Shown here: positions 1,588 to 30,300 of the stretch, one piece after another
How positions within the stretch are numbered: position 1 is the stretch's first letter
How the letters are laid out: the number at the start of each line of letters is the position of its first letter
IMG/VR virus record: IMGVR_UViG_3300042516_001234
Coordinates: 1 to 34,978 of that record
Reading direction: 5' to 3' (one strand)
Origin: a virus
Length of the DNA stretch: 34,978 nt
Made by a program: the position numbers and the translations under genes
The notes under the pieces: generated by a model
What the model saw: the letters and a program-made list of their open reading frames with translations, nothing else
The model's database searches: none
What the model was told of the DNA's origin: nothing

Positions 1588-1826
1588 CCTTTCCTCCACC
1601 TCTTATTATTTATAACTCCAGGCATATCTGGATCAATTTTTCTGTTTGTTTTTGTTTTTGTAACACCGTTCTTAGTAACTGTTGTAGTTTTTACTGGAAC
1701 TTCATTATAATACTTTGTAGGTAGACCTGATGGAGTTTTTTTGATAGGTCTGAATGGATTAGGAACAGCTACAAACTTATTTGCTGTAGTACGTTCAACA
1801 GTCTTTATTTTTTTATCGTTTGGCAT
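1584..1826 (-). CDS. Small basic hypothetical protein (80 aa)
   Basis: A Lys/Thr-rich protein with no recognised domain. A central VPVKTTTVTKNGVTKTKTNR stretch resembles the QPKTTTVGRIKKDEV stretch of the 406-aa neighbour, so the two may share a repeat-like linker or be functionally linked. The C-terminus RWRKG is basic. It is coupled to the 44-aa gene by an ATGA overlap. It is probably a small nucleic-acid-binding or virion protein, which is inference from composition alone. Confidence 0.65.
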   Translation of the reverse strand: MPNDKKIKTVERTTANKFVAVPNPFRPIKKTPSGLPTKYYNEVPVKTTTVTKNGVTKTKTNRKIDPDMPGVINNKRWRKG

Positions 1827-1918
1827 GACTTTATTTTTTGTAAAGATAATGAATTATTTTTTATACGATCTAAGTTCTTCTTGATCGTGTTCTTCCGTTT
1901 GATGTGTTTTTTAACCAT
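1805..1918 (-). CDS. Possible leader microprotein, highly basic (37 aa)
   Basis: The ATG at 1918-1916 lies only 4 nt after a TATATTTG -7 box (1923-1930), so a transcript from it would be almost leaderless. The peptide begins MVKKHIKRKNTIKKNLDRIK: 15 of 37 residues are Lys, Arg or His. It ends inside the start of the 80-aa gene. It may be a real basic microprotein or only a translated leader; no homology is known to me. Confidence 0.4.
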   Translation of the reverse strand: MVKKHIKRKNTIKKNLDRIKNNSLSLQKIKSCQTIKK

Positions 1919-1922
1919 ATAG

Positions 1923-1930
1923 CAAATATA
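1923..1930 (-). promoter_or_regulatory. -7 box of the leftward promoter
   Basis: TATATTTG on the minus strand matches the Bacteroidetes TAnnTTTG consensus and is identical to the box in front of the chaperonin gene. No TTTG is seen at the usual -33 position. Instead a small palindrome GGGTAATACCC (1941-1951) and the 12-bp palindrome CTGGCGCGCCAG (1956-1967) sit just upstream, suggesting activator or repressor control. Confidence 0.5.
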
Positions 1931-2370
1931 CGGAATTTTTGGGTAATACCCCCATCTGGCGCGCCAGCCCGATCGACCGAAACGACTGGCAAATCGATAG
2001 GGGGGTATGCATTTCGGAAAGTTCGGTCGGACTTTTTGGCTTTTTGCCTAGCGACCTACCTACCTGCCTACCTGTACGCTACGCGCACGTGTGTAGGGGT
2101 GGGTGTGCTTGTGCGCAGGGGTGGGGTGGTGTGTTGTTATCTGAGACCAATTACCCCTACCTTAAAATCGCTAGACAAACTTGTATTATAATTTGCATTA
2201 TGTTAAATAGACCGATAGACCAACCGACCAATCGTCCGTCCGTTCTACGTTTCAGCTCGATTGATTGGAGAGGTGGGGTTATCCCGTCTTGTAATCTTAC
2301 TTCACAAATGAATTTACTGCAAAATAATCTAAATCGATCCCAAACCCAATACCAATAAGGCTTTGCTAGT
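1931..2370. other. GC-rich divergent intergenic region with nested inverted repeats
   Basis: No credible gene is seen. The stretch is much richer in G+C than its surroundings and packed with symmetry: GGGTAATACCC (1941-1951), CTGGCGCGCCAG (1956-1967), ATACCCCC/GGGGGTAT (1946-1953 with 2001-2008), CGACCGAA/TTCGGTCG (1974-1981 with 2022-2029) and GTAGGGGT/ACCCCTAC (2093-2100 with 2153-2160). A C-rich CCTACCTACCTGCCTACCTG tract (2056-2075) is followed by G-runs at 2096-2126 that could form a G-quadruplex. A run of GACCR/CCGACC/CGTCCG motifs lies at 2209-2244. It separates leftward late genes from rightward early genes, so a regulatory, replication or packaging role is likely. Open frames here look like chance reads through GC-rich DNA. 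Confidence 0.55.
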
Positions 2371-2399
2371 CATTACAGCCTTCTCCAATGGTGTCATCA

Positions 2400-2437
2400 C
2401 TACGTATAAACACTTAGATCCTTCTACGTATTAACAC
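2400..2437 (+). repeat. Direct repeat CTACGTATWAACAC x2
   Basis: CTACGTATAAACAC (2400-2413) and CTACGTATTAACAC (2424-2437) differ at one base and start 24 bp apart. A further ACACGTAT lies directly after the second copy. They lie upstream of the early region and may bind a regulator or initiator. Confidence 0.5.
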
Positions 2438-2780
2438 GTATTTTTCATAAGAAGTATAAAAAAAATTGTTATCAATCGAAATAGTTGCCGTTACTTTGGT
2501 GTAAGCAAACGAGCTAATAACAATACTTCTTACTAGAAAACAACACGGAAATAAGGGTGCGACTAGCCTAGTGCATAAAGTCTAAATGAAACCGATAATA
2601 AACACCGAAAGGGAAATGGTTAAAGTGTTATAGGCAATGAATAGTAATTAGATTAATAAATATCGGTCTTTGACATCTTGGAACATGCGTCGCCTACGAT
2701 AACATCAAAAAAGCGGAAGCTGAAAAGCAATTAAGACTACTCCTATTTCACGCATGGTAGGTTACAGATAAAGATAATAT

Positions 2781-2823
2781 CCTTGTGGTGGTTCGATTCC
2801 ACCTATATAAGTGTGGTGCAAGG
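2781..2823 (+). other. T-arm-like hairpin inside a closing stem
   Basis: GGTGG (2787-2791), TTCGATT (2792-2798) and CCACC (2799-2803) form a perfect 5-bp stem with a canonical TpsiC loop (T54 T55 C56 R57 A58 N59 T60). The outer CCTTG/CAAGG pair closes it. I could not find a matching acceptor, D or anticodon arm, so this is not called a tRNA. Confidence 0.45.
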
Positions 2824-2832
2824 TACATTATA

Positions 2833-2890
2833 GCCGTGTTGACTATGAGTCATTAACTGAGAGCGAAACTCAGCACGGCACTAACCATTT
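2833..2890 (+). other. Hammerhead-like but non-canonical hairpin before the first early gene
   Basis: The element reads GCCGTG, then CTGAG-AGCGAAA-CTCAG, then CACGGC, then ACTAACC and an AT-rich leader ending in GCC before the ATG at 2903. The order CTGA/GAG/CGAAAC/TAACC echoes the three true hammerheads downstream, but the seventh core base, stem II and a stem III-UH junction are missing. It occupies the same place relative to its gene as the ribozymes do. Confidence 0.4.
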
Positions 2891-2902
2891 AAATTTATAG
2901 CC

Positions 2903-3016
2903 ATGAAAGTAGTATTTGCAGTTTGGACAAGCAGTTTAGCATTTGGTATTTTGTTCGGTATTGGATATGCCGTCTACCAAATCATAACAGGTCACGTTCC
3001 ACCGATTTACATTTAG
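2903..3016 (+). CDS. Single-pass membrane microprotein (37 aa)
   Basis: A tiny protein that is nearly all one hydrophobic helix: residues ~4-28 (VFAVWTSSLAFGILFGIGYAV) with a short tail ending HVPPIYI. It has no known family. It is the first cistron after the structured leader, and its stop codon TAG ends on the first base of hammerhead ribozyme 1. An early phage inner-membrane microprotein is a reasonable guess, for example one interfering with a host membrane process. Confidence 0.6.
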   Translation: MKVVFAVWTSSLAFGILFGIGYAVYQIITGHVPPIYI

Positions 3017-3072
3017 GTTAACTGATGAGAATTTAGTATTCGAAACGGCATTCACAAGATGCCGTATTAACC
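3016..3072 (+). ncRNA. Hammerhead ribozyme 1 (type I)
   Basis: All elements of a self-cleaving hammerhead are present in order. Stem I is GGTTAA (3016-3021), followed by core CTGATGA (3022-3028). Stem II is GAAT/ATTC (3029-3032, 3038-3041) with loop TTAGT, followed by GAAA (3042-3045). Stem III is CGGCAT/ATGCCG (3046-3051, 3059-3064) with a 7-nt loop, then T3065 and A3066, and the stem I return TTAACC (3067-3072). A3045 pairs with T3065, so the triplet is GUA and cleavage is predicted after A3066. An outer GATTT/AAATC pairing (3004-3008 with 3085-3089) could extend stem I around an internal loop. It would separate the 37-aa and 54-aa cistrons and leave a 23-nt leader on the latter. Confidence 0.92.
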
Positions 3073-3089
3073 AATAAAACATAGAAATC

Positions 3090-3254
3090 ATGTATTACAC
3101 AATAGAAATTTATTTAGAAAAAGGTCAATATGACTATACTGGCGAGATTCAAACAGAAGACAGATATATAATTGTCGATGCGGATGGATTTGATGCATGT
3201 GGTATACACATGACATTAGATGAGGCAAAGAAATTTATCAACGAGGTTGACTGA
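3090..3254 (+). CDS. Small hypothetical early protein (54 aa)
   Basis: An acidic, tyrosine-rich protein beginning MYYTIEIYLEKGQYDYTGEI with a likely beta-rich front and a helical end (MTLDEAKKFINEVD). No family is recognised. Its TGA stop (3252-3254) lies inside the catalytic CTGATGA box of hammerhead 2, and its last codons (GAG GTT GAC) form the ribozyme's stem I strand, so the C-terminal codons are constrained by the RNA. After cleavage at hammerhead 1 its message would begin 23 nt upstream of the ATG. Confidence 0.68.
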   Translation: MYYTIEIYLEKGQYDYTGEIQTEDRYIIVDADGFDACGIHMTLDEAKKFINEVD

Positions 3255-3299
3255 TGAGGTCTCAATGACCGAAACGTGACTACGTGTCACGTCTTAACC
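3245..3299 (+). ncRNA. Hammerhead ribozyme 2 (type I), overlapping a stop codon
   Basis: Stem I is GGTTGA (3245-3250) with TTAACC (3294-3299), including one G-U pair. The core CTGATGA is at 3251-3257. Stem II is GGTC/GACC (3258-3261, 3267-3270) with loop TCAAT. GAAA is at 3271-3274. Stem III is CGTGAC/GTCACG (3275-3280, 3286-3291) with loop TACGT, then T3292 and C3293. The GUC triplet predicts cleavage after C3293. Compared with ribozyme 1, stems II and III are entirely different in sequence yet perfectly paired, while the core and the stem I return strand are the same. The upstream gene's stop lies within the core. Confidence 0.93.
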
Positions 3300-3316
3300 A
3301 ATTTAATTTAATAGCC

Positions 3317-3427
3317 ATGAGCACAAAAATCTTAAAGATTGAAGGGAACTTCGAGGTATGGGGATTCTTTCTAAACGGAACATTAGTTAAGACTAAGAGA
3401 TTATTAATTCCATTCAGAGCGCGATGA
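3317..3427 (+). CDS. Small hypothetical early protein (36 aa)
   Basis: The peptide MSTKILKIEGNFEVWGFF and a basic tail (VKTKRLLIPFRAR) suggest a small beta hairpin, with no family known. It starts 23 nt after the hammerhead 2 cleavage site, the same leader length as the gene after hammerhead 1. It ends in an ATGA overlap with the next cistron, which argues for translational coupling. Confidence 0.6.
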   Translation: MSTKILKIEGNFEVWGFFLNGTLVKTKRLLIPFRAR

Positions 3428-3564
3428 TACTAGTATTTTTTAACCATCGTAGAGAGCAGATAATCATCACGAAGGAATTTGAGAACGAACAACATTTTAA
3501 TAACTACGTAGCTTACATGCAAAAGCGTTACGGCTACCAATTAGACGAGGTATATAACAAATAG
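3424..3564 (+). CDS. Small hypothetical early protein (46 aa)
   Basis: It starts MILVFFNHRREQIIITKEFE and contains an aromatic helix (FNNYVAYMQKRYGYQLDEVY). The ATGA overlap with the 36-aa gene and the 5-nt gap to the 75-aa gene support it as coding. The function is unknown. It shares the hammerhead 2 to 3 transcript segment with its two neighbours. Confidence 0.62.
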   Translation: MILVFFNHRREQIIITKEFENEQHFNNYVAYMQKRYGYQLDEVYNK

Positions 3565-3569
3565 AAATT

Positions 3570-3797
3570 ATGGAAAAGAGAATGAACAACGTAGGCTTTC
3601 ACAAGGCGGAAGGCACTATCAGACAATTGACAATCAGAGAGCAATTGATTCGCAACAAGCAATTCGTTGGCATCAACGACATCAAGCACCCGATACACGG
3701 AATAATATCCGTTGACAGAGACAAGCTAGACGACCTACTCAAGTACGAGGAGGGTCAATTGATTCGATTCAAGGAGAGCATGTTTCACCAAGGTTAA
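3570..3797 (+). CDS. Hypothetical early protein (75 aa)
   Basis: A basic/acidic mixed protein (MEKRMNNVGFHKAEGTIRQL...) with a probable helix-rich first half (TIREQLIRNKQF) and a C-terminal helix (DKLDDLLKYEEGQLIRFKESM). No recognised domain. Its TAA stop (3795-3797) is the end of the 5' stem I strand of hammerhead 3, so the ribozyme follows with no gap. It is the third gene in the segment between hammerheads 2 and 3. Confidence 0.7.
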   Translation: MEKRMNNVGFHKAEGTIRQLTIREQLIRNKQFVGINDIKHPIHGIISVDRDKLDDLLKYEEGQLIRFKESMFHQG

Positions 3798-3848
3798 CTG
3801 ACGAGATTTAAATAATCGAAACAGCACTCCAAAGGTGCTGTCTTAACC
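3792..3848 (+). ncRNA. Hammerhead ribozyme 3 (type I)
   Basis: Stem I is GGTTAA/TTAACC (3792-3797, 3843-3848). The core CTGACGA (3798-3804) uses C at the variable seventh position. Stem II is GATT/AATC (3805-3808, 3814-3817) with loop TAAAT. GAAA is at 3818-3821. Stem III is CAGCAC/GTGCTG (3822-3827, 3835-3840), extendable by one T-G pair, then T3841 and C3842. The GUC triplet predicts cleavage after C3842. A GTTT/AAAC pairing (3782-3785 with 3854-3857) may extend stem I across an internal loop. Cleavage would leave a 24-nt leader on the next gene. Confidence 0.92.
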
Positions 3849-3866
3849 AATAAAAACTTAGAACAA

Positions 3867-4094
3867 ATGAGAGTAATTAGAATCAACACAACAGCATTTA
3901 ATGAAGAAGACTTCTATCTATTAACTACCTTGAACGATGACCAAATCGCTGAAGTCATCCAACCAATCGTAAACGCAGAACGAGATGGAGAGGGCGACTA
4001 CTATGACAATGACATGATACTCCAAGCATTGAAAGATAGATTTCCTTTAGAGTATACAGACATGTACCAAGAATTTGATAAACTAACATTTTAG
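3867..4094 (+). CDS. Hypothetical early protein (75 aa)
   Basis: An acidic protein (MRVIRINTTAFNEEDFYLLT...) with DDQIAEVIQPIVNAERDGEGDYYDNDMILQALKDRFP, of a kind common in flavobacterial phages and without known function. It is the first gene after hammerhead 3 and starts a run (3867-5478) of closely spaced cistrons in which I see no further ribozymes. Confidence 0.72.
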   Translation: MRVIRINTTAFNEEDFYLLTTLNDDQIAEVIQPIVNAERDGEGDYYDNDMILQALKDRFPLEYTDMYQEFDKLTF

Positions 4095-4099
4095 AACTT

Positions 4100-4381
4100 A
4101 TGGCTGAAATAAATTTTCAAAAAGAAAAATCATGGAGCATTAAGGATAAATTTCCTATTAATGTTTATGTTGAGAAATCATGGACGGGAACATACTTCGT
4201 TATCACTGCACCAATCATGAGCATAAGTTATGGTGTGTGGGAAGAATTAGATTCAAATAGAGAGGTAGACATATCAAGATATGAATATGACAATGGTAAA
4301 GCAACATGGACTTCCTACACCCTAGACCAAATAAACAAATGGGGAGAAAAGAATAAAGATAAAATAATTATTAACCTATAA
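4100..4381 (+). CDS. Hypothetical protein (93 aa)
   Basis: Rich in Trp, Tyr, Lys and Ile (VEKSWTGTYFVITAPIMSISYGVWEEL), which suggests a small beta-sheet protein. No family recognised. It begins 5 nt after the preceding stop and ends 3 nt before the next start, so it belongs to the same operon. The base composition is somewhat more AT-rich than 4606-5478. Confidence 0.7.
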   Translation: MAEINFQKEKSWSIKDKFPINVYVEKSWTGTYFVITAPIMSISYGVWEELDSNREVDISRYEYDNGKATWTSYTLDQINKWGEKNKDKIIINL

Positions 4382-4384
4382 CTT

Positions 4385-4600
4385 ATGGACACGATAGACA
4401 GAATAATCGCATACGAGAGCGGAATGCTTGATGGTGCAGAGATGGTATACATGTTCTCTGAACTTGTAAAAAATGGTAGCGCATGGTCGTTACAAGGTCA
4501 TTACGGACGGATGGCATCCCGACTAATTGAGGTCGGGATATTAACCAAGGATGGTGACATAGATGAAATGAGAGCAATAGAATACGGAATTAATATGTAG
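4385..4600 (+). CDS. DUF7417-like phage protein (71 aa)
   Basis: The pattern MDTIDRIIAYESGMLDGAEMVYMFSELVKNGSAWSLQGHYGRMASRLIEVGIL is that of a small phage/plasmid family often annotated DUF7417: an I(I)AYExGxL opening, F..LV..G.AW.LQGHYGR.A..LI..G. It is helical and acidic at the end. No biochemical role is known to me. Family assignment is from memory of the motif. It lies in the mid-early operon. Confidence 0.78.
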   Translation: MDTIDRIIAYESGMLDGAEMVYMFSELVKNGSAWSLQGHYGRMASRLIEVGILTKDGDIDEMRAIEYGINM

Positions 4601-4605
4601 AAATC

Positions 4606-5076
4606 ATGGAAGGAAGTTTTATAAATTGGATGTACTCAACCATCCAAACAATACCAAACAAAGGTGATTGGGCAACAATATGTCTATACACCGACCGACA
4701 AGTAGCTAAGGTACATGACGTATCTAAAGACGGCAAGAGTGTAATCATCCAACACTGCAACACAACAGGAGATGGGACTGAACTACCAATGGGACATCAA
4801 GATTGGAAGCACGAACCAATAGACCATTTCGAGACGATAGTATATAGAAACAAGTCTTGGAGAAAGGAAAGCAAGTCAATCGAATTTGACGACAAGTGGT
4901 ACAAGCAGTATGAGATGTCAGGCGAAAGGTTCAAAGACTATACAAATGGTCTAGACCTTTGGGACGAACAAGGACGTCTCAAGCTAATTGATGGAGTAAC
5001 TAAATTAAAAACAACCTATAGTAAAATAAACATAGTGTTCGGTGTATGTGACTATCACTACGATTGGACATTTTAA
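4606..5076 (+). CDS. Hypothetical phage protein (156 aa)
   Basis: A Trp/Asp-rich soluble protein with no recognised domain. The N-terminal ~55 residues (WMYSTIQTIPNKGDWATICLYTDRQVAKVHDVSKDGKSVIIQ) look like a beta-barrel module; the rest (NKSWRKESKSIEFDDKWYKQYEM) is charged. It is separated by 5 nt from its upstream gene and 12 nt from its downstream one. The overlapping frame at 5064-5276 is judged a shadow. Confidence 0.72.
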   Translation: MEGSFINWMYSTIQTIPNKGDWATICLYTDRQVAKVHDVSKDGKSVIIQHCNTTGDGTELPMGHQDWKHEPIDHFETIVYRNKSWRKESKSIEFDDKWYKQYEMSGERFKDYTNGLDLWDEQGRLKLIDGVTKLKTTYSKINIVFGVCDYHYDWTF

Positions 5077-5088
5077 ATCTAGAAACAA

Positions 5089-5478
5089 ATGCTAAAACAA
5101 TTCAGCCAGTCGCTCTACCCAACGGGACGTTCGGTAAGCCAAGTAAACTACACGTCAAGATACACGACGTTAACCAACACCAAGAAATACATCTGCCTAT
5201 CTGTCGAGGACATCGAAGCAAGTGTTCGAGCGTTCATCCGACAGCACGGCATGACGACCGATATGTTGTTCGGTGAGTTTGATGGGGAAGTCTTAGAGCT
5301 TTCCGTTCTAACAAGCCACAACGACAAACGGTCGGCATATTTCTTCGGCATGTTAAACAGTCAACCAATCGTTGACACTGACACGATGATTGTGACTTCT
5401 CTACCAACGCCTCAAGTAACAGGCACTAACACGCAGAGAATCAGCTACATAAATTATGTCATTGACAACCTGTGTTGA
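5089..5478 (+). CDS. Hypothetical phage protein (129 aa)
   Basis: Begins MLKQFSQSLYPTGRSVSQVNYTSRYTTL and is Ser/Thr-rich, with an IEASVRAFIRQHGMTTDMLFGEFDGEVLELSVL core and a VIDNLC end. No known domain. It is the last gene before the AT-rich repeat region, and its TGA stop (5476-5478) falls inside the first GTGTTGACTTT repeat. Codon use is less AT-rich than in the MKTAVEW cluster further on. Confidence 0.7.
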   Translation: MLKQFSQSLYPTGRSVSQVNYTSRYTTLTNTKKYICLSVEDIEASVRAFIRQHGMTTDMLFGEFDGEVLELSVLTSHNDKRSAYFFGMLNSQPIVDTDTMIVTSLPTPQVTGTNTQRISYINYVIDNLC

Positions 5479-5732
5479 CTTTATGTTAAGTTTGTGTCGA
5501 CTTTTTTCGACCTAACTTACACATTATCAGTCAATTAACCATTTTTGTGTTAACTTTACGACTTTTAGTCCCTAGTGGTAGAATTTTTTTTTCTACTACT
5601 ATATCTATATATATATATTTTTTTTTTTGAAAAATAGAAAAAAGTTGTAAAGTTAACACTTTCCTTATAAACACTAGAAAAAGTTAACACAAAGTCGTAA
5701 TAAAGTCAACACAAAACCCCAAAAGTCAACAC
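5472..5732. repeat. Inverted array of AAAGTYRACAC repeats around an AT-rich core, candidate origin/control region
   Basis: Seven copies of an 11-bp motif are visible. In GTGTYRACTTT orientation they lie at 5472-5482, 5494-5504 and 5547-5557. In AAAGTYAACAC orientation they lie at 5649-5659, 5680-5690, 5702-5712 and 5722-5732. The two sets point toward each other across a very AT-rich core (5581-5640). That core holds an 11-bp hairpin TAGTGGTAGAA/TTCTACTACTA (5573-5583 with 5591-5601, one G-T pair, seven-T loop) and a TATATA/T-run tract. Start-to-start spacings include 22, 31, 22 and 20 bp. Iterons flanking an unwinding element are typical of replication origins; an operator cluster for the next operon is the alternative. 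The last repeat ends 1 nt before the ATG at 5734. Confidence 0.65.
5485..5520 (+). terminator. Imperfect hairpin at the end of the first early operon
   Basis: GTCGA (5496-5500) pairs with TCGAC (5507-5511) around a CTTTTT loop, and an outer G-TAAGTT/AACTTAC pairing (5485-5492 with 5514-5520) extends it. It follows the stop at 5478 and may terminate or attenuate transcription. No strong T-tract follows, so it could instead be a structural part of the neighbouring repeat region. Confidence 0.4.
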
Positions 5733-5733
5733 T

Positions 5734-6471
5734 ATGAAAAAAACAATAGTCGTATGGTTCTCATGTGGAGCCGCCAGTGCCGTAGCTTCAAAACGGACAA
5801 TAGAAAAGTATGGAGAAACTCACAACATTCTAATCGTCAACAATCCTGTTGACGAAGAAGACGAAGACAATCGAAGATTTATGAATGACGTATCAAAGTG
5901 GTTAGATAAACCAATCATCCAAGCAGTCAACAGCACAGCCAACACAACATCAGCTGTTGACATATGGGACAAGCGAAAATACATGAGCGGAATTAATGGT
6001 GCTCCGTGTACACTTGTGTTAAAGAAGGGAGCTAGATATGAATTTGAGAAATCAAACAAGATAGACTACCACGTTTTAGGTTTCACAGCTGACGAGGTAG
6101 GTAGGCATGAGCGATTTGTAAAGCACGAGAGAGATAATGTTCTGCCAGTATTGATTGAGGACGGCATAACAAAGCAGATGTGTTTTGATATCATAACAAG
6201 TGCAGGTATAACTCTACCTAGGGTTTACTCCATGGGATATCCTAACGCCAACTGCATTGGCTGTGTGAAGGCTACATCACCTACGTATTGGAATCATGTG
6301 AGGAGAATGCATCCCGATCAATTTATAGAGAGAGCCGAGCAGAGCCGTAGGCTAGGCGTTAAACTAGTTAGATATAAAGGTAAGCGTATATTTCTTGACG
6401 AGCTCCCTGATAATGCTAAGGGAAGAGGTATGAAGTCTTACGAATGTGGAATTTTTTGCGATACAAAATGA
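5734..6471 (+). CDS. PP-loop ATPase, phosphoadenosine-phosphosulfate-reductase-like (245 aa)
   Basis: The N-terminus has a PP-loop variant, WFSCGAASAVA (residues 8-18), in place of the common SGGxDS. This is the nucleotide-binding signature of the PAPS reductase / ATP-pyrophosphatase superfamily. Later, C174xxC177 (NCIGC) and C238xxxC242 (CGIFC) could hold an Fe-S cluster or zinc, as in several phage-encoded members. Relatives reduce PAPS, load sulfur onto tRNA or act in DNA phosphorothioation (DndC/SspD). No dnd/ssp partner genes are visible, so the substrate is unknown. It is the first gene after the repeat region, with its ATG 1 nt after the last repeat, so expression is probably controlled there. 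It is coupled to the next gene by ATGA. Confidence 0.82.
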   Translation: MKKTIVVWFSCGAASAVASKRTIEKYGETHNILIVNNPVDEEDEDNRRFMNDVSKWLDKPIIQAVNSTANTTSAVDIWDKRKYMSGINGAPCTLVLKKGARYEFEKSNKIDYHVLGFTADEVGRHERFVKHERDNVLPVLIEDGITKQMCFDIITSAGITLPRVYSMGYPNANCIGCVKATSPTYWNHVRRMHPDQFIERAEQSRRLGVKLVRYKGKRIFLDELPDNAKGRGMKSYECGIFCDTK

Positions 6472-11795: not shown

Positions 11796-12156
11796 CTCAG
11801 CAACATGCCTACAGTGTTTAAAAACATTAGTAAGCAGACACGTCCATGACTTTAATAAGTGTGGATGTCCAAACGAAGCATTTGTAGATGGCGGTTCATA
11901 CTATCAAAGGTACGGTGCAAAAGACATGAAAAAGATACATGCGTATGCTATAAATGACGATGATGACTTTGAGCTTGTACGTCAGTTTGCAACACGAGGT
12001 AGTCGAGGAATAGATGGCAAGCAACCTCTGATATGGATACCAATAGCACATCTAACAGATGATCACATCCAAGCAATACTTGAATATGGTGGTGCAGAAT
12101 GGCACCTTGAATTATTAAAAAAAGAAATTAAATACAGACATGAAAATAGAACTTAA
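11779..12156 (+). CDS. Conserved phage protein with Cys/His pairs (125 aa)
   Basis: A GTG start at 11779 makes a 17-nt overlap with the previous gene. The N-terminus has CLQCLKTLVSRHVHDFNKCGCPNEAFVDGGSYY: two Cys pairs (CxxC, CxC) and RHxHDF, as in a widespread small phage family (VSRHRHDF...C.C....FVDGG) that probably binds zinc. The second half (ATRGSRGIDGKQPLIWIPIAHLTDDHIQAIL) matches the family's G..G.QPL.......T..H..A. pattern. Function unknown. Confidence 0.75.
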   Translation: MAIVYNSATCLQCLKTLVSRHVHDFNKCGCPNEAFVDGGSYYQRYGAKDMKKIHAYAINDDDDFELVRQFATRGSRGIDGKQPLIWIPIAHLTDDHIQAILEYGGAEWHLELLKKEIKYRHENRT

Positions 12157-13264
12157 ATCAAAAATAATTAATGATAAATATACAGACTATGTATATGAAT
12201 CATTTGATATTCAGAACAGAGAAGAAACATCTGTATCTATTCCTATGAGTTTAGGAGAAGCAAAAACTTTTGATTGGAATATAGGTGTTATACTCGGTAG
12301 TAGTGGTAGCGGAAAGACTACAATTTTGAAAAAATGTGGTGAGTTAAAACAATCTAAATTTGATTACAATAAACCATTAATAAGCAACTTTAATTGGCTA
12401 GAGCCAAAAGAAGCTACATTAGTTTTAACTTCAATGGGTTTATCATCAGTACCAACTTGGTTAAGACCATTTAATGCATTAAGCAATGGCGAACAATACA
12501 GGGCAACATTAGCTTACTTGGTTGCATCTGCTAAGGATGGTGAAGTAATACTAATAGATGAATATACATCTGTTGTTGATAGAGATGTTGCTAAAGCTAT
12601 GAGTTTTGCATTACAAAAATACATTCGTAGAGAAAACAAGAGGATTATTTTAGCATCTTGTCATTATGATATTTTAGAATGGTTAATACCAGATTGGACT
12701 TGTTCACCGCAAAAAGGAGGCGTACTCGAAAGGTGCGACTATCGAAGGCACGGCAGACCAAAAATCGAACTACAAATTAGTAGAGTCGAATCTGAAACTT
12801 GGAACCTCTTCAAAAAACATCATTATCTAACAGAAGAAGTAAATAAAAGTTGTAAGTTTTTATTATTTGAATGGCAAAACAAACCTATTGCAATTATTGC
12901 TATAATAAATCAACCAAGGAAAGGTTGCCCTAATGGTTTTGCTATAAGTAGAATAGTTGTCATGCCAGATTTTCAAGGAATGGGATTGGGCGTTAAGTTA
13001 TCTGAATTTGCAGGAGGTATTATAAGAAATGAAGGAGGTCTTTGTTTTATAAAAACAGTAAACCCAGCGTTAGGTGTGTACTTTAACAAAAGTAATAAAT
13101 GGAGACCAACAGTAAATAATGGTAAAAAAAGAACTATAAAAGAAGATACTGATAAAAAAGCATCTAACAGATTAGAAAGAGCTTCTTACTGCCACGAATA
13201 CATAGGAGAAAGCATAAGCGGTTATGAAGAATTATTATTACCAATAAAAGAAATGAGAAAATGA
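12140..13264 (+). CDS. ABC-type ATPase fused to GNAT acetyltransferase domain (374 aa, COG2401-like)
   Basis: Residues ~40-205 form an ABC ATPase: Walker A GSSGSGKT (53-60), a signature-like LSNGEQ (114-119), Walker B VILIDE (136-141) and a switch His (H175). Residues ~210-345 form a GNAT domain: FKKHHYLTEEVNKSCKF, then SRIVVMPDFQGMGLG (270-284), the acetyl-CoA pyrophosphate loop (Q/RxxGxG/A). This architecture is catalogued as COG2401. The GNAT half also resembles enzymes related to Mu Mom, so nucleic-acid base modification is one hypothesis. There is no membrane partner, so it is not a transporter. It overlaps its neighbours by 17 nt and 4 nt. Confidence 0.82.
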   Translation: MKIELKSKIINDKYTDYVYESFDIQNREETSVSIPMSLGEAKTFDWNIGVILGSSGSGKTTILKKCGELKQSKFDYNKPLISNFNWLEPKEATLVLTSMGLSSVPTWLRPFNALSNGEQYRATLAYLVASAKDGEVILIDEYTSVVDRDVAKAMSFALQKYIRRENKRIILASCHYDILEWLIPDWTCSPQKGGVLERCDYRRHGRPKIELQISRVESETWNLFKKHHYLTEEVNKSCKFLLFEWQNKPIAIIAIINQPRKGCPNGFAISRIVVMPDFQGMGLGVKLSEFAGGIIRNEGGLCFIKTVNPALGVYFNKSNKWRPTVNNGKKRTIKEDTDKKASNRLERASYCHEYIGESISGYEELLLPIKEMRK

Positions 13265-21342: not shown

Positions 21343-21356
21343 GGGGCTATTGCCCC
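21343..21356. terminator. Bidirectional terminator between early and late regions
   Basis: GGGGC (21343-21347), a TATT loop, and GCCCC (21352-21356), with T-rich sequence following on both strands. The stem overlaps the stop codon of the leftward giant gene (21347-21349) and begins right after the rightward gene's TAA (21340-21342), so convergent transcripts end on one 14-nt hairpin. Confidence 0.65.
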
Positions 21357-24300
21357 TCTCTTATTTTCCCTTCTCTAACAGTTCCCTTTCTAACTGTTCC
21401 TTGTCTTGTAGTTCCAGTTCTACCTTTTACTATTCCTTTATTCTCGGCAATTCTTCTTATTATATCCTCTGCCGTCATTCCTCCCTTAATCATTTGAGCG
21501 AATTTCATACTAGGTTTACTAATTGTTCTTCTAAGTTTTGCGTATTCAGCCTCCTGTTTTTCATCAAATCCTCCAAGCTTATCTATCATTTTCATTTCCA
21601 TAGCTATCTTCCTTGGATCTGAGTTCTTGCCGATCAATACTTTTTCAATTTTACCAACAGGACGATTTGTTAATTTTTCAACCTCGTCTATTTTTGTTTT
21701 TTGATTTTCTGTATATGATCTCTTTTTAATATTACGTATACCTTTATTTGGAATCTGACCAGCCTCTCTCGGTAACAAACCTAAAGCTTGTGGTATCTGG
21801 AAGAATAATCCATAAGCAACTTTCTCTCTATCTTCATCAGATATATACTTAATTGTTTTTCTTCCTTGATACTCATCTTCATACTTTCCAGTCATTGCTA
21901 AGTCTATAGCATCTTTTAATTCGCTATATGTTTTCAATGCAACTCCTGGGGCACCAGGTATATATCTTTCCCATCCAGTAGCTTCCATATTTTCATACAG
22001 TTGGAATGTTCTTTTTTTCTTCTCCTCTTCAATAAAATCTGCCTCTTGTTTTTCAGTCATAGGTTTATCACCGTTTGCTATTCTTATATCATTTTCAGCC
22101 TTAACCAACTCTGCTATCTCATCATCACCAACTAGTGGGTACATTTCAAATAGATTATTAAATCCAGTAATTAAGAATTCATCTGTTAGGCCAGGAAGAG
22201 GTGAGAATAAATCCACCAATAAGTTTTTGATAGGCATCTTAAATTCCTTAACATCATCTTCAGTGACTTTCATTCCAAACACATAGAACAATACTTCTTC
22301 CTCTTCATCATCATCTTCTCCGTAGAAGTAATTTGTTATAGCGTCTATTGTTTTTCTTATTGCTGCACCTAATAAGTTAAATACTACAATCTCTGCTGGA
22401 AGGGCAGCTAGTGATCTCATAGCTATTATCTTATCTTCCTTTGATGATACTTTAGATCCTAATATTTGCATATCATTTATCATCCTAGCTCTCTGGTTCC
22501 AAACAAATGATGTAAATGGCATGAAAAGTTTTGTGATCATTTTTTTAGTAGCATCTTCAGTTGCAAATAGTTCTCCAGTTAGTAAAGGATCAGATACGTT
22601 CTGTTGTCTATCAACTTGCATTTGAGCATATTCAGCTGCCTTTTTATTTACCTCGTGGTTGTTCCAATCTATATTAGTGCTAAGACCTTGATCTCTTAAA
22701 CTCTTTAAGTAGTAAGTAATAAATGAAGATTTAGCTACATAAGCATCTGGCGATTGTATTAATGCCTTCAACCACATGTCACCTATCTTACCTACACCAT
22801 CATAAACTTTACCAACAGCTGAATCAGCCAAAACATTAACTCTCTTGTCTATAGTATCAATATTAGCTTCTGATTTTATACCACGGTTAGATATAGGCAT
22901 GCCAAGTCTGTCGATCCAAGCATTACTGTTAGGAGTTAAACTTGTAAATCTACCTGCATTTAGCAATGTATTTATTACAGGAGAGAACTGCTTAATTGCA
23001 GAACCAATTCCACCTAAAGCTCTAATAGTACCAGCCTTAGCTATTGCATTAAAATACTTCATAATGTCATCAGCGCTACTTCTAGGTATCATCCTCTTAC
23101 CCTTCATTCTTTTCACGTAAGAGTTCACTCTTGACTTTATCAATGAAGACTCATCTCCAGCTAATTTATCAAAGTTATTAGAGTCCATGAAGCCTTTTAC
23201 TTGTCTAATAGCGGCAGCTGTATTTATGTCAACAAGTGCATTTCTTAATGAGTTAGCGTTATTCATATCAAAGTTTAGATCAACGTATCTATTCTTTGGT
23301 TTCTTTCTAACATTTTCCATCAACACACCAGCTTTTTTTGTATCTGTGTACCCAAGAGATGATACAAATCCGCTATCTGAGCTAGTTATGTCGTCATCTT
23401 GTGCCTTAGAAGCCATAAGCTTCATTTTATCTGGAGTATAGTTTATATCACTACTTAACATAGTGTTGTAAACAGACAAACTGACATCATATAAATCTGT
23501 ATAGTGTTGTTTCCATTGATCTACCCACCAGTCAACAGCTTCTCTGTTTGACTTAGATGAGTTAGCTCTTATGATATCAATGTCTCTAGAATTTACTTTT
23601 AACTTAGAGAATGCATTCTCATACATTTCAGCTAGTTTCTGCTCATCGCTATTTCCTTCTTTTAGTTGTTCAATACTCTCAGATATAGCGTCAATTCTCC
23701 TATTTAGTTCTGCTTTAACTTGAGCGTTATCACCATTAACATTTCTCATAAGATATGCAAGCATACCTCTTTCTATGATGTTCTGTTGAGTCATAAAGTC
23801 CTTTCCGTAGAAATCTTGCTTTGTGTACGATTCAAGTATTTTGTTGTATATAAGTTCAGCTTTATTTTTGCCGTTAACCATATCCAACAATCCCATATCA
23901 CTCATTATTCTAGTACCAATGGTAGTACCTCTAAATAATTTTTCAAATAATAAAGGTATGCTAAGTATCTCAGTAGATGCTATCTTAGAAGCTTTTGTTT
24001 TTATACCAACAGATTTAACGCCAGCATTTACAAGAGCCTTAACTTTCATGGCTCCAACATATGACTGTACATTAGACTCAAGACCGCTTGTTATTCCGTT
24101 ATTTAGGAAGTTATCTACAGATTCAGATAGATAGATCAAGCTTCTTGTATCAAGTTCTTTTAGATCCATCTTCATTATAGCTTTTAGGATATCTTTGTTT
24201 TTATCAGATACCTCCATAGACTCTCCAGTGATTGGATTGATTCCATTTCTAATAATAGACTCTACAATACCAAGCATCATGTCTAGTCTTCTCTCAACAA

Positions 24301-27300
24301 AGTCTTTAACGTCATCGTTGATATCAGTATCTGTAGACTTCATGTCCTCTATGATCTTTCTTATCTCATTTAGAGTCATGTCTTTAGATATCAATCCAGC
24401 ATCCTTAAGATAGTCATACTCGGCCAATAGTTGGTCCTTTTTGATTTCTTCTTGTCTAGATATCTCATCCATAGTGTATTCATTCACGTCAGCTATATTT
24501 GCTGGCTGCTTGAATTTTACTTGCTCTCCCCTTACAACAGATGGAGCCATAGCATTTTTAATTGAGTCAGCTATCTCGTTATATGTATCGATGTCCTCAA
24601 CCATTGATGGGTCGATATTCAAGAACGCCTTAGCCATACCGATAACCTCGGCTTGGTTGTTTGACTTGGTAAGTCTTCTTATCGCTCTTCTTGCAGAGAA
24701 TGCATTGCTTAATTTTTCTTGATAGTTAGCATCAGCGAAAACCTTAGCAACGTAGTCTAAAAATCTTTGTACAATTACTGGGTTGTCAAGATTTATACTG
24801 CTAGCTCTATCTGTAATAACAGCAGACTGTTTGGTTGTTATTTTGCCAGATCGAACCATTGACTTGATTATTGCTCCAATGGCCTTTCTTTTGGAATTTA
24901 GATCGGCCTTTGCTTCTCTTGACGCTTTGTTCCAAGCAGTAAAGAATTCTTTTCGTAAGGCATCAACGGTTTTTGTTTGCGTCTCTGGTTTTGGTTTACC
25001 TAAAATCTTAGCGACAGATGGAGCCTTCTTAATCTTCTCACCAAAGAAAGCCTTGATCTCTCTAACTGCATCTTCTCTAGCTGTATCGTCAGCGTTTGCA
25101 AACCAATTAGACTTTTGCAAGTCACCAAGAGCAGCGGCTACGCCTTGCTCGTGAGAATTACCTCTCTTCTCTACAGACAGTTCGTACTTATCCTTGGCCT
25201 TTTGAATGGCCTCTTGTTTGGATGTTGGTTTTTGTTTTTTGAATTTTTTTATTGAATATACTACACTTCCATATTGAGCATTATCTAAATCTGTACCTCT
25301 TGAATCTACACCATCAAATCCCAACGATTTCATAACCACTGTTGATGGAGAATCAACATTATTATTATTTATTTCATTTATTATTGATTCTATTTTATTT
25401 TTTTGATTTATTTCACTTTGAACATAAGATTTAAATTCTAGTTCAGAATAATCGCGACTTAATTTGGTAACTTCTGATTTACCTAGGTAATTTAATAAAT
25501 TTTCAATTCTAGATTTTAATTTATCTATATTTTTATTTTTGCCTATAGAATTGTTATTGATATCTTTTAATAAATCATGAAGTTCAATAGTTCCTTTTGC
25601 TAAATTATATCCATCTAAATCAATAGTACTTGTAGCTCGTTCACCATATTGATCTGCTTGGTTTTTAGTTCCAAAAAAATAAAATCCAGTTCCAAAATGA
25701 CCAGTGCTTCTATCACTTCCTTCGAATTTATCTTTAGTTTCTGCTTTTTTTATTAAATCCCCAGATCTATATCCAGTATTATCTTTCTGTTTTTTAAACC
25801 TAGTCCCCTCTTCAATAGCAAAATCTGGCAATATACCAACCTTTTGATCGGCAAATTTCATCTCCTCATATACCTCGCCTACCAATCTATCAGCCTCTTC
25901 TATCTTACCTTCTTTACGAAGTTCTCTAGCCTTATCTCTCTTCTTGAATGCAGCGTCATTTACACCACTAAAATTAACCCAGCTATTTTGACCTCTTGTC
26001 TCAGATGTCATAGCCTTTCTAGCTTCTGGAGAATACATCTCAGAGTGGACTCTCCAAGCATTCTCTTCTCCTACTGGACCAAAACTGTTGCCTAGTTTGG
26101 CGTGACCAAAGAAGTCATGCACAAATCTAAACACGTCATTGATCAACAAAGTCTCACCATTTACATCCTTTCTTCCAGAGTCTTTTAATAATAAATTTTC
26201 AGATCTCTGCTCTTCAGTTATAGGCTCATCTCCAAAACCAGATTCTGTAGAGAATATTTTCATCCTCTTATTATCCTTAAGGTCTTTTATCATAGCTTCA
26301 GAGTTTGAGTAAGGCTCGTTATTATTTATCTCAACATTGTAGCCTTCTTTAACTATAGCGTCATACTGATCTAATGTTTCCTTAGCCATAGCCTCATAAG
26401 CAGCCTTTACCTTCGGATCGTTTGGATTATTTTCCATCTGATCGTAAGCGTCAGATATTCTTTTTGAAAGACCTTCATCTAGTTTTGTTATCTTTTCTAC
26501 TGGTATGTATTCCATACCGATAGATTGCATGTAAGATCTAGCTATATTTTCAGCATCCTTTAAAGGCTCATTGAACAACTTGTTTCCAGCTACTGGTGCA
26601 GTTATTTTTTCACCTTTGTGTTTTTTGAATTTTTTACTTGAATCTAAATCAAGAAATCTTATTGACTTATCATCTGGATCTTTTGAAAATCCTAATTTAT
26701 CTTCCCAGTATTTTGCAGCATTCAAAGATAGTACATCATCTGCAATAATTTTTTTAACACCGTCTTCTTTTGATTCTGATATTAATGTATTTATTAAATC
26801 TGTACCATAACCATTAACTCCTTCTACATAAAGGATAATCATATTATCTTTTTCTAATACATCTGATTTATCTCTCCAAAAAGAAATAATTGCTTTTTTA
26901 CCATCCTTATCAACAGCCTCTATTCTTCTTACAAATTTTTTCTTACCAGGATAACTTAAATTTATTTCTTTAGCCGATAATTCTAATATATTTCCATTTG
27001 ATGAAGTCATTTTACCAATAGATATATTTTCTGAAGACTTATCTAATGGTATTTCAGATCGATTGATTCCTATATCAGATGTTAATACTTTTTGTTTCTT
27101 TAATTTTTTACTTGAATAATTAGTATTTATATATCCATCTCCATATCCATTTGACGCCCTTCCTAATACTTTGCCATCAAAACTTTTACCTAATTCATCA
27201 ATATTTTCATTAGAAGAAGACAACATAACGTCACGTCCATTCTGTCTATTTTCAAGAAGTATTAATTTAGGTGCTTTTCCATTTTTTTGTTTAATATGAA

Positions 27301-30300
27301 AAGGATAACTTTGATGAGAATCTTTACTAACTTTAACCTCATCATTGACTTCTATGATTGCATATATATCGCCACCATTAAGTCCTTTTGTTAATTCTTC
27401 TCTAGAGACACCAGCTATTAAATCTATTACTGATTGACTTGTTTTTGTATTTTTTGATGTTTCCGACCAACCAATATTCTTAGAAGTGTCACCACCTAAG
27501 AATTCAATAATTTTGTTACTGTTGATTTTTGTTGATTCTGTTTTTCCAAGTTCAACTATTATTGATTTCAACAGTGTACCTCTGTTGTCAAATGAAGATT
27601 TACTTACATCATCAAACAATGAATCTACCGCTGATATCATATCAGAAGAGCTTAATTTTCCAGAAAAATTTATTTTTGCTTTTGTATCTTTATTATTTTG
27701 TAGTGCAGAAATTACAGCTTTTCTAAAATCAGAAGGAGATATTAATCCATCAGAAACCAAAGATTCAACAATCTTTAAACTAGAAGAAGCGCCTTGAGGA
27801 CTACTTATTAATTTAGCATCAGTTCCTTTTACCAAAACTAAATATCCTTTTCCTCCATTAATTTCTAAAGATTTATTTATTCTATTAGCTATTTGGTCAG
27901 CTACAATTTTATTAGATGATGCCCAAACATCACCAAACTTAGTTACAAAAAATAGCCCTCCATTCCCTTGAGCTTTTAAATCTCCATTTATAAATATATT
28001 ACCTACTAACATATCATCAGGAGATGTTGTAGCAACATATTTTCCGTTGAAAACTGATATATCTTTTACTTGCTCAAGCAATCCTTTATCAATTAACTCT
28101 TGCATCCTATCTTGCTCTACATATACTATTTCTATTTTAGTTTTACTGGATCCTATAATTTTACTTTTTTTAATTTTATCTATAGGATTTTTTATTTCTT
28201 GAGTATTGCTTTCGTATATTATTTCCTCACCAGTCCTCAAAGATTTAGTCAAACTATTAATAAAGTCAACAGCGTTCTCTGAATTCATAGCATTCAAGAA
28301 AGGAACCATAGATTTAGGTAGTCCTAACTTTTGGAATATTCTAGCGATAAGCGCTTTAAACTGATTGAACTTTGTTGTAGTTAGTTCGATCTCAGCTTCA
28401 GCCATTATGGCCCCTAGTTCTGACAAATACTCTTCAGCTTGGTCAGATGTTTTATATTGAGATATGAAATCACTTAACCATTCCTTTAACTTCTTGTCAG
28501 TAATTATTCTATTAAGACCGTTAGCTAAATCAAGTATAGCTCCACTGTCCATACCTTTCTTTAGTAATGCATGATGGATAGCCTCATGGAATACAGTTTG
28601 AGCGTTACCTCCAGCTGCTAAATTAATGTGTATAGCTCCTTCTTGTGTATCGTACGCTCCTCTTTCTCCATCTTCATACTCTTCACCTATTGCAGCAGAG
28701 TACTCTTCGTTTGTCTTGTGAATATATATCTTAACGTCAGGAAGAGCATTCAATACCAACTTAGTAGCTGTAGCCGTTCTTTTGTCTGCAACCTCTTCTA
28801 CATTCTCAAGTGTTACTAGGTTTTGTTGCGTAGGTGCTGCAAAACTAGGAGTTCTTCCTTCGTTAAGAGCTTTAGCTATCTCTTTAAATTGTTCGTCAGT
28901 AAATTGTGTAGGATTAACTCCAGTACCGCCAGTCTTTACATTCTCAAATGTAGATAAATCAAACAGAGACTCTTGATCAGCAGCTTTTGCAAACTCAATG
29001 GCTTGCTGTCTTGATGACTCTGGAGCAACGATATTTAGGTCTATCGATACTTTGTTACTGTTAGGAAATTTATATATACCAACCTTAACTGTATTTTGAT
29101 CTCCAATTTTGCTTGAATGTTTTTCAACAAAGTCGGATATCATCTCTGGGGTAATCTCTTCAACAGTAGTATTTTCGCTAACAATAGGAACAACCAAACC
29201 GCCTCCCTCGTACTTAGTTCCATCTATGTTAAATGTAGCACCATCTTCAGTCTCCATATCAACAGACTTAACTCTATCAAGTTCGGCCGTTGTGTTTGTA
29301 GCAATGATAGGTTTATCTATTGTTACTTCTTTACCTTCTTTGGTAACTTCTTCAAGTTTTGTTTCGGGTTCTCTTCCCTCCACTTCTTCGCCAACTCTGG
29401 CTTCTGGCTGTACAGGAACTTCACCTGTTGCTTGCTTTTGAAAGGCATCTTTACTAATTTTTTGTAGTTCGTTATCAATCTCTGTTATTCTTTCCTTTTG
29501 AGCGGCAACAAGAGATTGATCCTTGCCGTCAATTTCTTTTTCAAGTCTTTGCTTTTCAGCCATAAGGTTTACAGACTTAACTTGGTCCTCAACACTTAGG
29601 TTGTCAGGCATAGCATTAAATATAGCGCCAACCTTATCAAGAGCGTTCAATTGATTTTGTGCCTCTGCCTTTGTTGTCTTTCCAGATAACATATCGCTCT
29701 TAAGTTTTATCACAATCATCTTTCTTAGCTCGTTGTCAGTTGAAACAGTTTTCAAAAAGTCAACATCTTCATTATCATAAAGAGATATATTCCCATTTAT
29801 AACCTTTTGAGATATAGCTCCAGCACCACTCATAACCATACCGCCAATACCTTCAGCTATACCATCCTCTATAACCATCTTTAGACCATCCATAAAGCTA
29901 TCTGGAGTATCAAAAAACTCACCTCCAGTTAGTTCGCTTGCTAGTCTATCGTCTTTTTTTATTTCGTTGATCAAACTCTTATATCCAATATCAAGAACCA
30001 ACGACTGAGTAGCTCCAGTTTCAGCCTCGGTTAGTGCACCACCGACTATTCTTAAACCAAACTTAGCCATATTCGACTTGATCTCTTTGTCTAGTACATT
30101 TTGTAAAAGTTCTGCCGATCCTTTACCTGCTGTCTTTTTAACAGCTCCTTGTATAGACTTCATTATAAGAGACTTAGCAAGAGGGTTTTTAGACATAGCT
30201 GCACTAAGACCAATCTTTTCCAATATTCCCATACCCATAGCATATGGTAATGCTATTAAGTTCATCTCTGTAAGTGACGTTGTTTCAAAATCTGGATCAT

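Follow-up and report, generated by a model that had tools for sequence, protein, structure and literature searches.

Compact type I hammerhead motifs predicted to cut a phage transcript between small genes

Clustered hammerhead ribozymes are known from prophages, where they flank single genes or short gene blocks, and a role in processing long phage transcripts into mRNAs the length of an operon or a gene has been proposed (Perreault et al. 2011, PMC3088659, accessible portion; see also the review PMC6155905). According to the same portion, in vitro tests of three tandem arrays yielded the products expected, and activity in E. coli was seen for one. A 2017 review, in its accessible sections, treats the role of prokaryotic hammerheads as an open question (PMC6155905). 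Here, we analyze a viral sequence of 34,978 nucleotides (IMG/VR record IMGVR_UViG_3300042516_001234, positions 1 to 34,978; the window), which carries three hammerhead motifs, HH1, HH2, and HH3, among small plus-strand genes. We consider it very likely, judging from sequence, that these are active compact type I hammerheads, which act in cis and cleave a polycistronic phage transcript between its genes. A preliminary description of the window had left open whether such an arrangement had precedent, and the clustered phage hammerheads in the accessible portion of PMC3088659 settle this question.

All three elements can be read directly in the window at the coordinates first proposed, and each has stems II and III closed by loops and stem I open to the transcript, which confirms the type I assignment. 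As a correction to these coordinates, the functional units include one unpaired A on each side. HH1 (3015–3073, plus strand) consists of stem I GGTTAA/TTAACC between these two A residues, the core CTGATGA/GAAA, stem II GAAT/ATTC with the loop TTAGT, and stem III CGGCAT/ATGCCG, and its triplet GTA predicts cleavage after A3066. HH2 (3244–3300, plus strand) combines stem I GGTTGA/TTAACC with the same core, stem II GGTC/GACC, the loop TCAAT, and stem III CGTGAC/GTCACG; the triplet is GTC and the predicted cut follows C3293. HH3 (3791–3849, plus strand) has stem I GGTTAA/TTAACC, the core CTGACGA/GAAA, stem II GATT/AATC, the loop TAAAT, stem III CAGCAC/GTGCTG, and the triplet GTC, with cleavage predicted after C3842. 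Stems II and III thus differ in every element, as had been claimed. The motifs lie between cistrons, as first described, and the order is g1, HH1, g2, HH2, g3, g4, g5, HH3, and g6 onward. The stop codon of g1 (TAG, 3014–3016) overlaps the first two bases of HH1, the TGA of the HH2 catalytic core is the stop codon of g2 (3252–3254), and stem I of HH3 contains that of g5 (TAA, 3795–3797).

The hammerhead core (C3 U4 G5 A6 N G8 A9, G12 A13 A14 A15.1, and U16.1 H17) is complete in HH1, HH2, and HH3. The pattern CTGANGA-N8..30-GAAAC occurs three times on the plus strand of the window and never on the minus strand, and the reversed pattern occurs once. A covariance model of 34 relatives, containing no rows from the window, matches HH1, HH2, and HH3 with E values of 4.2e-14, 1e-13, and 7.8e-12, respectively, and with default filters finds no further match in the window at E ≤ 10. 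A 46-row model to which the three window elements contribute, run with filters off, gave no fourth hammerhead in the window; the next best match scored 10.5 bits (E = 1.6).

The pairing of relatives was examined through two scans of viral contigs. Stem I was fixed in scan 1, with stems II and III left free, and loop II and most of stem II were fixed in scan 2, with stems I and III left free. Each scan matches at least 120 viral stretches, and the family counts given below are among the matches listed; redundancy removal compared only elements of equal length, leaving some relatedness in the pairing counts. In scan 2, a 6-bp stem I forms in 101/101 nonredundant elements, compared with 13.3% for randomly mated halves. 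Variation is seen at each of the six pairs and is smallest at the outermost, which is G-C in 96/101; position 7 beside the stem is A/A in 101/101. Scan 1 yields a directly paired 4-bp stem II in 90/114 nonredundant elements (11.2% in the mated control) and a 4-bp stem III in 105/114 (8.4%). Stem II contains a bulged base in 5/114 elements and is unpaired in another five, two of which (loci L019 and L088) resemble chance matches in coding sequence. A recurrent core variant is also seen, in which a single base is inserted between A9 of the core and stem II (CUGANGA-U-GGAU...; 14/114, for example L009, L048, L072, L092, and L100).

The subtype that emerges has a 6-bp stem I bounded by A residues, a 4-bp stem II, and a loop II that is mostly U-N-A-N-U. 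GGTTAA is the most frequent stem I among the listed matches of the stem-I-free scan (25/117). By rough extrapolation, this form would occur in several hundred contigs, because the complete count for the scan-1 sub-pattern with N7 = A is 43 stretches, against 9/106 loci among the matches listed. RNAalifold recovers the hammerhead from 46 rows, with 16 pairs, 13 of which show changes on both sides, although this subset was selected with a descriptor that demands pairing. A strict structural descriptor finds 300 matches in 2.0 Mb of collected sequence and none in the reversed sequence; as nearly all of these loci were collected via hammerhead patterns, the figure of 300 is not a frequency. The scan-based pairing result depends neither on RNAalifold nor on core invariance, and the tested stem was not presupposed. 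The compensatory conservation asserted in the preliminary description is supported by these tests and by covariation between loop II and the bases that flank stem I.

A five-base loop II is present in 240 of 261 strict-descriptor elements, with U as base 1 in 238, A as base 3 in 227, and U as base 5 in 216. Where base 5 is U, the base 3′ of stem I is A in 216/216 elements; these cases were partly selected by the loop II of scan 2, and the flanking bases are in neither scan pattern. Where base 5 is A, the 3′ flank is U in 11/13, the A-U cases coming from six loci and six of the eleven from a single locus, L238. With G at base 5, the flank is A in 8/11, G in two, and C in one. For base 1 and the 5′ flank of stem I, the combination is U-A in 238 elements and A-U in two. 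The pattern suggests that loop II docks on the bases flanking stem I, and it agrees with the loop contacts in hammerheads described in the accessible sections of a review (PMC6155905).

Genomic context could be tested for 235 of the 261 elements; the remaining 26 were duplicates or lay close to a contig end. An open reading frame (ORF) of at least 35 codons ends between −60 and +15 of stem I in 191/235, and an ORF starts at an ATG within 60 nt past the cut in 204/235. Both features are found for 167/235, compared with 7.9% for 4700 positions drawn at random from that strand, a control that does not preserve intergenic location. The predicted cut lies a median of 24 nt from the ATG (interquartile range 21–27), and the flanking ORFs are short, with medians of 83 codons upstream and 80.5 downstream. 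The position strongly implies that an intercistronic transcript is cut by the hammerheads. Ribozyme and upstream stop codon overlap in 131 of the 191 cases; among the 191 stops, 44 are the core UGA, 41 fall at stem I positions 4–6 (40 of them UAA), and 36 start at −2 (34 of them UAG, made with the docking A followed by the first base of the stem). Each of these three types is found once in the window. The bias in stop frame (70, 104, and 17) is partly forced, as two frames meet a built-in stop. Because Shine-Dalgarno-like leaders follow 96/235 elements, the family is probably not limited to hosts that lack this signal. The idea that the UUAACC leader acts as a translation signal and thereby forces GGTTAA is weakened, since leaders with no obvious Shine-Dalgarno sequence are, by eye, also found with other stems I.

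The preliminary description had pointed to matching sites in related phages as a check, and ribozymes are indeed present upstream of most inspected g3 homologues and at one site in cultured phages; by a strict script, none precedes the g6 homologues of eight other loci. Ten of the 15 inspected g3 loci, including the near-identical L105, have a hammerhead directly upstream with different yet paired stems. Four (L050, L093, L064, and L048) instead carry element 0, a distinct RNA described below, and L033 has neither; L029 and L006 (from the same phages as L105 and L015) and the weakly matching L065 were left out. A g6 homologue is preceded by a hammerhead in the window and in L105. The cultured Flavobacterium elemo phages contain one hammerhead at one orthologous site, with stem II as GACT/AGTC in 2/7 and GGTT/AACC in 3/7 of the records inspected (seven, from 63 listed Flavobacterium records). 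We note that a hypothetical minus-strand gene is annotated over the hammerhead in six of these seven records (MT497017, MT497067, MT497069, MT497071, MT497072, and MT497091, not MT497068). The Pelagibacter phages HTVC019P and HTVC131P have one copy each.

In the mechanism that we propose, self-cleavage of the transcript would take place 3′ of GUA or GUC. This would leave the upstream message with its whole ORF and a 3′ end formed by the stem III hairpin, bearing a 2′,3′-cyclic phosphate, and the downstream message would start with 5′-OH UUAACC, freed from the short stem I. With the cut sites placed according to hammerhead chemistry, the predicted plus-strand leaders span 3067–3089 for the g2 message (23 nt, 5′-OH UUAACCAAU...), 3294–3316 for the g3–g5 message (23 nt), and 3843–3866 for the g6 message (24 nt), in agreement with the 23–24 nt first reported. 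Such A/U-rich leaders would suit initiation that does not depend on a Shine-Dalgarno sequence. Cutting at all three sites would yield four messages, namely the 5′ leader RNA with g1, g2 by itself, g3–g5, and g6 onward. Because each upstream stop lies inside or against a ribozyme, a ribosome that terminates there should sit over both the core and stem I, and we predict that translation and cleavage compete. A more elaborate version seems doubtful to us: the stop codon would be built from ribozyme bases (core UGA, stem I UAA, or UAG with the docking A and the first base of stem I), the terminating ribosome would keep the ribozyme unfolded and so couple cutting to translation, and element 0 would be a second self-processing RNA that makes a similar UAACC leader for g1.

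Several results weigh against self-cleavage between genes. In isolation, the hammerhead is the minimum-energy fold of HH2 and HH3 and, for HH1, lies 0.8 kcal/mol from the minimum, but the probabilities of the exact hammerhead fold are lukewarm (0.08, 0.47, and 0.25 for HH1, HH2, and HH3). With about 30 nt of native flank on each side, the full hammerhead is not the minimum-energy fold of any of the three elements; docking and cotranscriptional folding are outside the energy models. Core invariance among the relatives is imposed by searches that require the core and is hence no evidence. In the 46-row model scan, the other gene junctions of the window have no ribozyme, and no hammerhead is found in front of the g6 homologue in 8/8 other loci by a strict script that misses inserted-base variants. 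The elemo site is not absolutely constrained, as elemoD and elemoF (2/7) have a mismatched stem II, GACT/AACC. Neither Pelagibacter copy has an annotated start directly after it, and none of three primase-related phage records (MW202828, Leef_1, and Panino) matches the hammerhead model.

Rfam 15 at gathering thresholds gives no match in the window, an outcome that the preliminary description had named as refuting hammerhead identity. We judge it uninformative because the Rfam models also miss the relatives in other phage contigs. No hammerhead is reported by Rfam in any of eight loci of phage contigs with intact copies, nor in any locus of a set of 10, several of them picked for element 0. With relaxed limits over 1800–6000, one element scores 23.8 bits for RAGATH-1-hammerhead (RF03152), for which the threshold is 56.3, and the relative L051 scores 19.9 bits for Hammerhead_1 (RF00163) against a threshold of 34. 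Both families have the core and type I topology in common with the window elements, whereas the RAGATH-1 consensus features an additional upstream hairpin and a 5-bp rather than a 6-bp stem I. A whole hammerhead class is thus missed by the standard RNA-family models.

In phages such as T7, early transcripts are processed by a host RNase at intercistronic hairpins. Following this precedent, the motifs could be folded hairpins, RNase III-like or terminator-like, that are recognized by a protein or RNase and do not cleave themselves. Stem III is a strong hairpin, and the broken stem II in two of the seven elemo records fits a site of this kind. We nevertheless find this explanation highly unlikely, since every catalytic base is present in all three window elements, a terminator scan yields no plus-strand site in 3000–3900, and only the hammerhead fold explains the 6-bp stem I, the 4-bp stem II, and the covariation of loop II with the flanks in the relatives.

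The ribozymes might alternatively mark recombination or mobility boundaries, with small cassettes bounded by near-identical GGTTAACTGA / TTAACCAA shuffled between phages and cleavage being secondary. The exchange of hammerhead, element 0, or neither in front of g3 homologues (10, 4, and 1 of 15), the g6 homologues with and without a hammerhead (the window and L105 against the eight loci of the strict script), and the prevalence of GGTTAA as stem I would all be in keeping with such shuffling. Stem I is, however, free to vary across the family provided that pairing holds, which homologous DNA boundaries would not require, and the predicted docking contacts are kept; boundaries as the primary role therefore appear quite improbable. 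Consecutive ribozymes could also release gene-length RNAs that are ligated into circular messages through their 5′-OH and 2′,3′-cyclic phosphate ends. The tandem arrangement would permit this, as HH1 and HH2 would free 3067–3293 and HH2 and HH3 would free 3294–3842 with ligatable ends, but no ligase was found among the window proteins searched (part of the ORFs), and the accessible portion of PMC3088659 states, with data not shown there, that spliced or circular products were undetected. We give circular messages hardly any credence, and cleavage in cis into separate messages is the reading that we retain.

The subtype extends to bacterial genomes, where a scan retrieves 44 stretches. Eleven loci pass the structure check, from Mucilaginibacter (2), Flavobacteriales (3), Daejeonella, Aquimarina, and bins called Bdellovibrionales, Burkholderiales, Verrucomicrobia, and Aliivibrio. 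L254, with a longer stem III, passes by eye, and the other 32 fail a check that is strict about bulges. The Aliivibrio bin contig, L238, has eight model matches in 5.8 kb and leaders that look Bacteroidota-like, and it may be a misbinned phage. The hammerheads at L254:2157–2268 and L238:1328–1438 have in common a large stem III domain, 98.6% identical over 70 nt, and the hammerhead in L174 (about 2478–2592) has a divergent version with AAAAGCCTAA..AAAGCTCCC. These could be natural ligand- or protein-sensing hammerheads. Assignment of the domain to a known riboswitch was rejected, as L174 has no meaningful Rfam match and L254 has none at gathering thresholds. Of two scans for more copies of the domain, one returned nothing and the other only L174 itself and L318, an apparent chance terminator.

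Element 0 (2833–2886, plus strand) is a three-way-junction RNA directly upstream of g1, with stems P1 GCCGTG/CACGGC, P2 GACT..AGTC, and P3 CTGAG-AGCGAAA-CTCAG. It ends in ACTAACC, which resembles the start of the hammerhead leaders, and the leader that follows is about as long. A degenerate hammerhead was considered and rejected by eye, as no arrangement of stems II and III fits and most relatives have AGCGAUA rather than GAAA. Seventeen viral stretches match element 0, and relatives are found in L009, L048, L050, L064, L091, L092, L093, L095, L100, L274–L284, and L315. By eye, their stems change together, and the loop AGCGATA and CACTAACC are kept, with CACGAACC in L048 and a differing version in L108. 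Rfam gives no match for element 0, which is a candidate for a new ribozyme or regulatory RNA that occupies the same slot as the hammerhead. Further upstream, a conserved noncoding stretch (about 2398–2822) includes the hairpin AGC-AAACGA-GCT at 2504–2515 and a tRNA T-arm-like hairpin, GGTGG-TTCGATT-CCACC (2787–2803), whose stem varies in relatives by eye. ARAGORN and Rfam find no match in this stretch, and ARAGORN detects no tRNA or tmRNA in the window despite the T-arm-like hairpin.

The block of small plus-strand genes begins at 2903 and runs into replication-type genes; the gene order suggests the early expression assumed in the preliminary description. It comprises g1 (2903–3016, 37 aa, a small hydrophobic protein), g2 (3090–3254, 54 aa, with no PHROG match), g3 (3317–3427, 36 aa), g4 (3424–3564, 46 aa, overlapping g3 at ATGA), g5 (3570–3797, 75 aa), and g6 (3867–4094, 75 aa), the first gene past HH3, all on the plus strand. 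The window primase has a BT4734-like domain and relatives in 32 records, mostly Flavobacterium phages plus Polaribacter, Cellulophaga, Maribacter, and Bacteroides; the closest is from an uncultured podovirus (50% identity). These relationships point to a Bacteroidota phage. Among named phages, no nucleotide relatives of 2400–5600 were found. Elsewhere in the window, a single ORF of 3817 aa (21347–32800, minus strand) takes up a third of the sequence, and one protein (12140–13264, plus strand; PHROG 11143, function not known) joins an ABC-type ATPase region to a GNAT acetyltransferase domain. Nested inverted repeats between two genes (5471–5716; arms of 36, 20, and 14–16 nt, motif GTGTTAACTTTA) are possible origin or regulator sites.

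The closest described systems remain the arrays of PMC3088659, which, in the accessible portion, resemble the window in having several hammerheads in one phage gene block, between genes and on the coding strand. The arrays tested there came from Clostridium, Azorhizobium, and Agrobacterium, and a pseudoknot stabilizes many of the forms described, whereas the window family has one compact type I form with fixed stem lengths, ribozyme-overlapping stop codons, and uniform leaders. The words "stop codon," "translation," and "ribosome" are absent from the main text of that paper. Among the top-ranked papers of the literature searched (mostly open papers), we did not find the compact subtype, its built-in stop codons and uniform leaders, or arrays in Bacteroidota phages, and members of the subtype may be present in Dataset S1 of PMC3088659. 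The subtype offers a clean handle on the role of prokaryotic hammerheads, being a common form whose stop-to-start position and leader length are fixed. A testable new idea is the competition with terminating ribosomes that is predicted from stop codons overlapping the ribozyme. In the cultured elemo phages, the same site has the subtype in two compensated forms and in a mismatched one, the latter being a ready natural control. In the Schistosoma mansoni hammerhead, stem I is longer and loop II has an internal loop of that stem as its partner; in the window family, by contrast, stem I stops after 6 bp and the predicted partners are single flanking bases. That ribozyme and its relatives share the type I topology with the window family, and their loop II contacts the stem I region through noncanonical pairs (PMC6155905, accessible sections), a kind of contact that the covariation suggests for the window family. 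The theta ribozymes of gut phages are likewise small self-cleaving phage RNAs, as proposed here, but according to the accessible part of their description they have an HDV-like fold and often lie beside tRNAs (PMC10879173), whereas the window motifs are located between protein genes.

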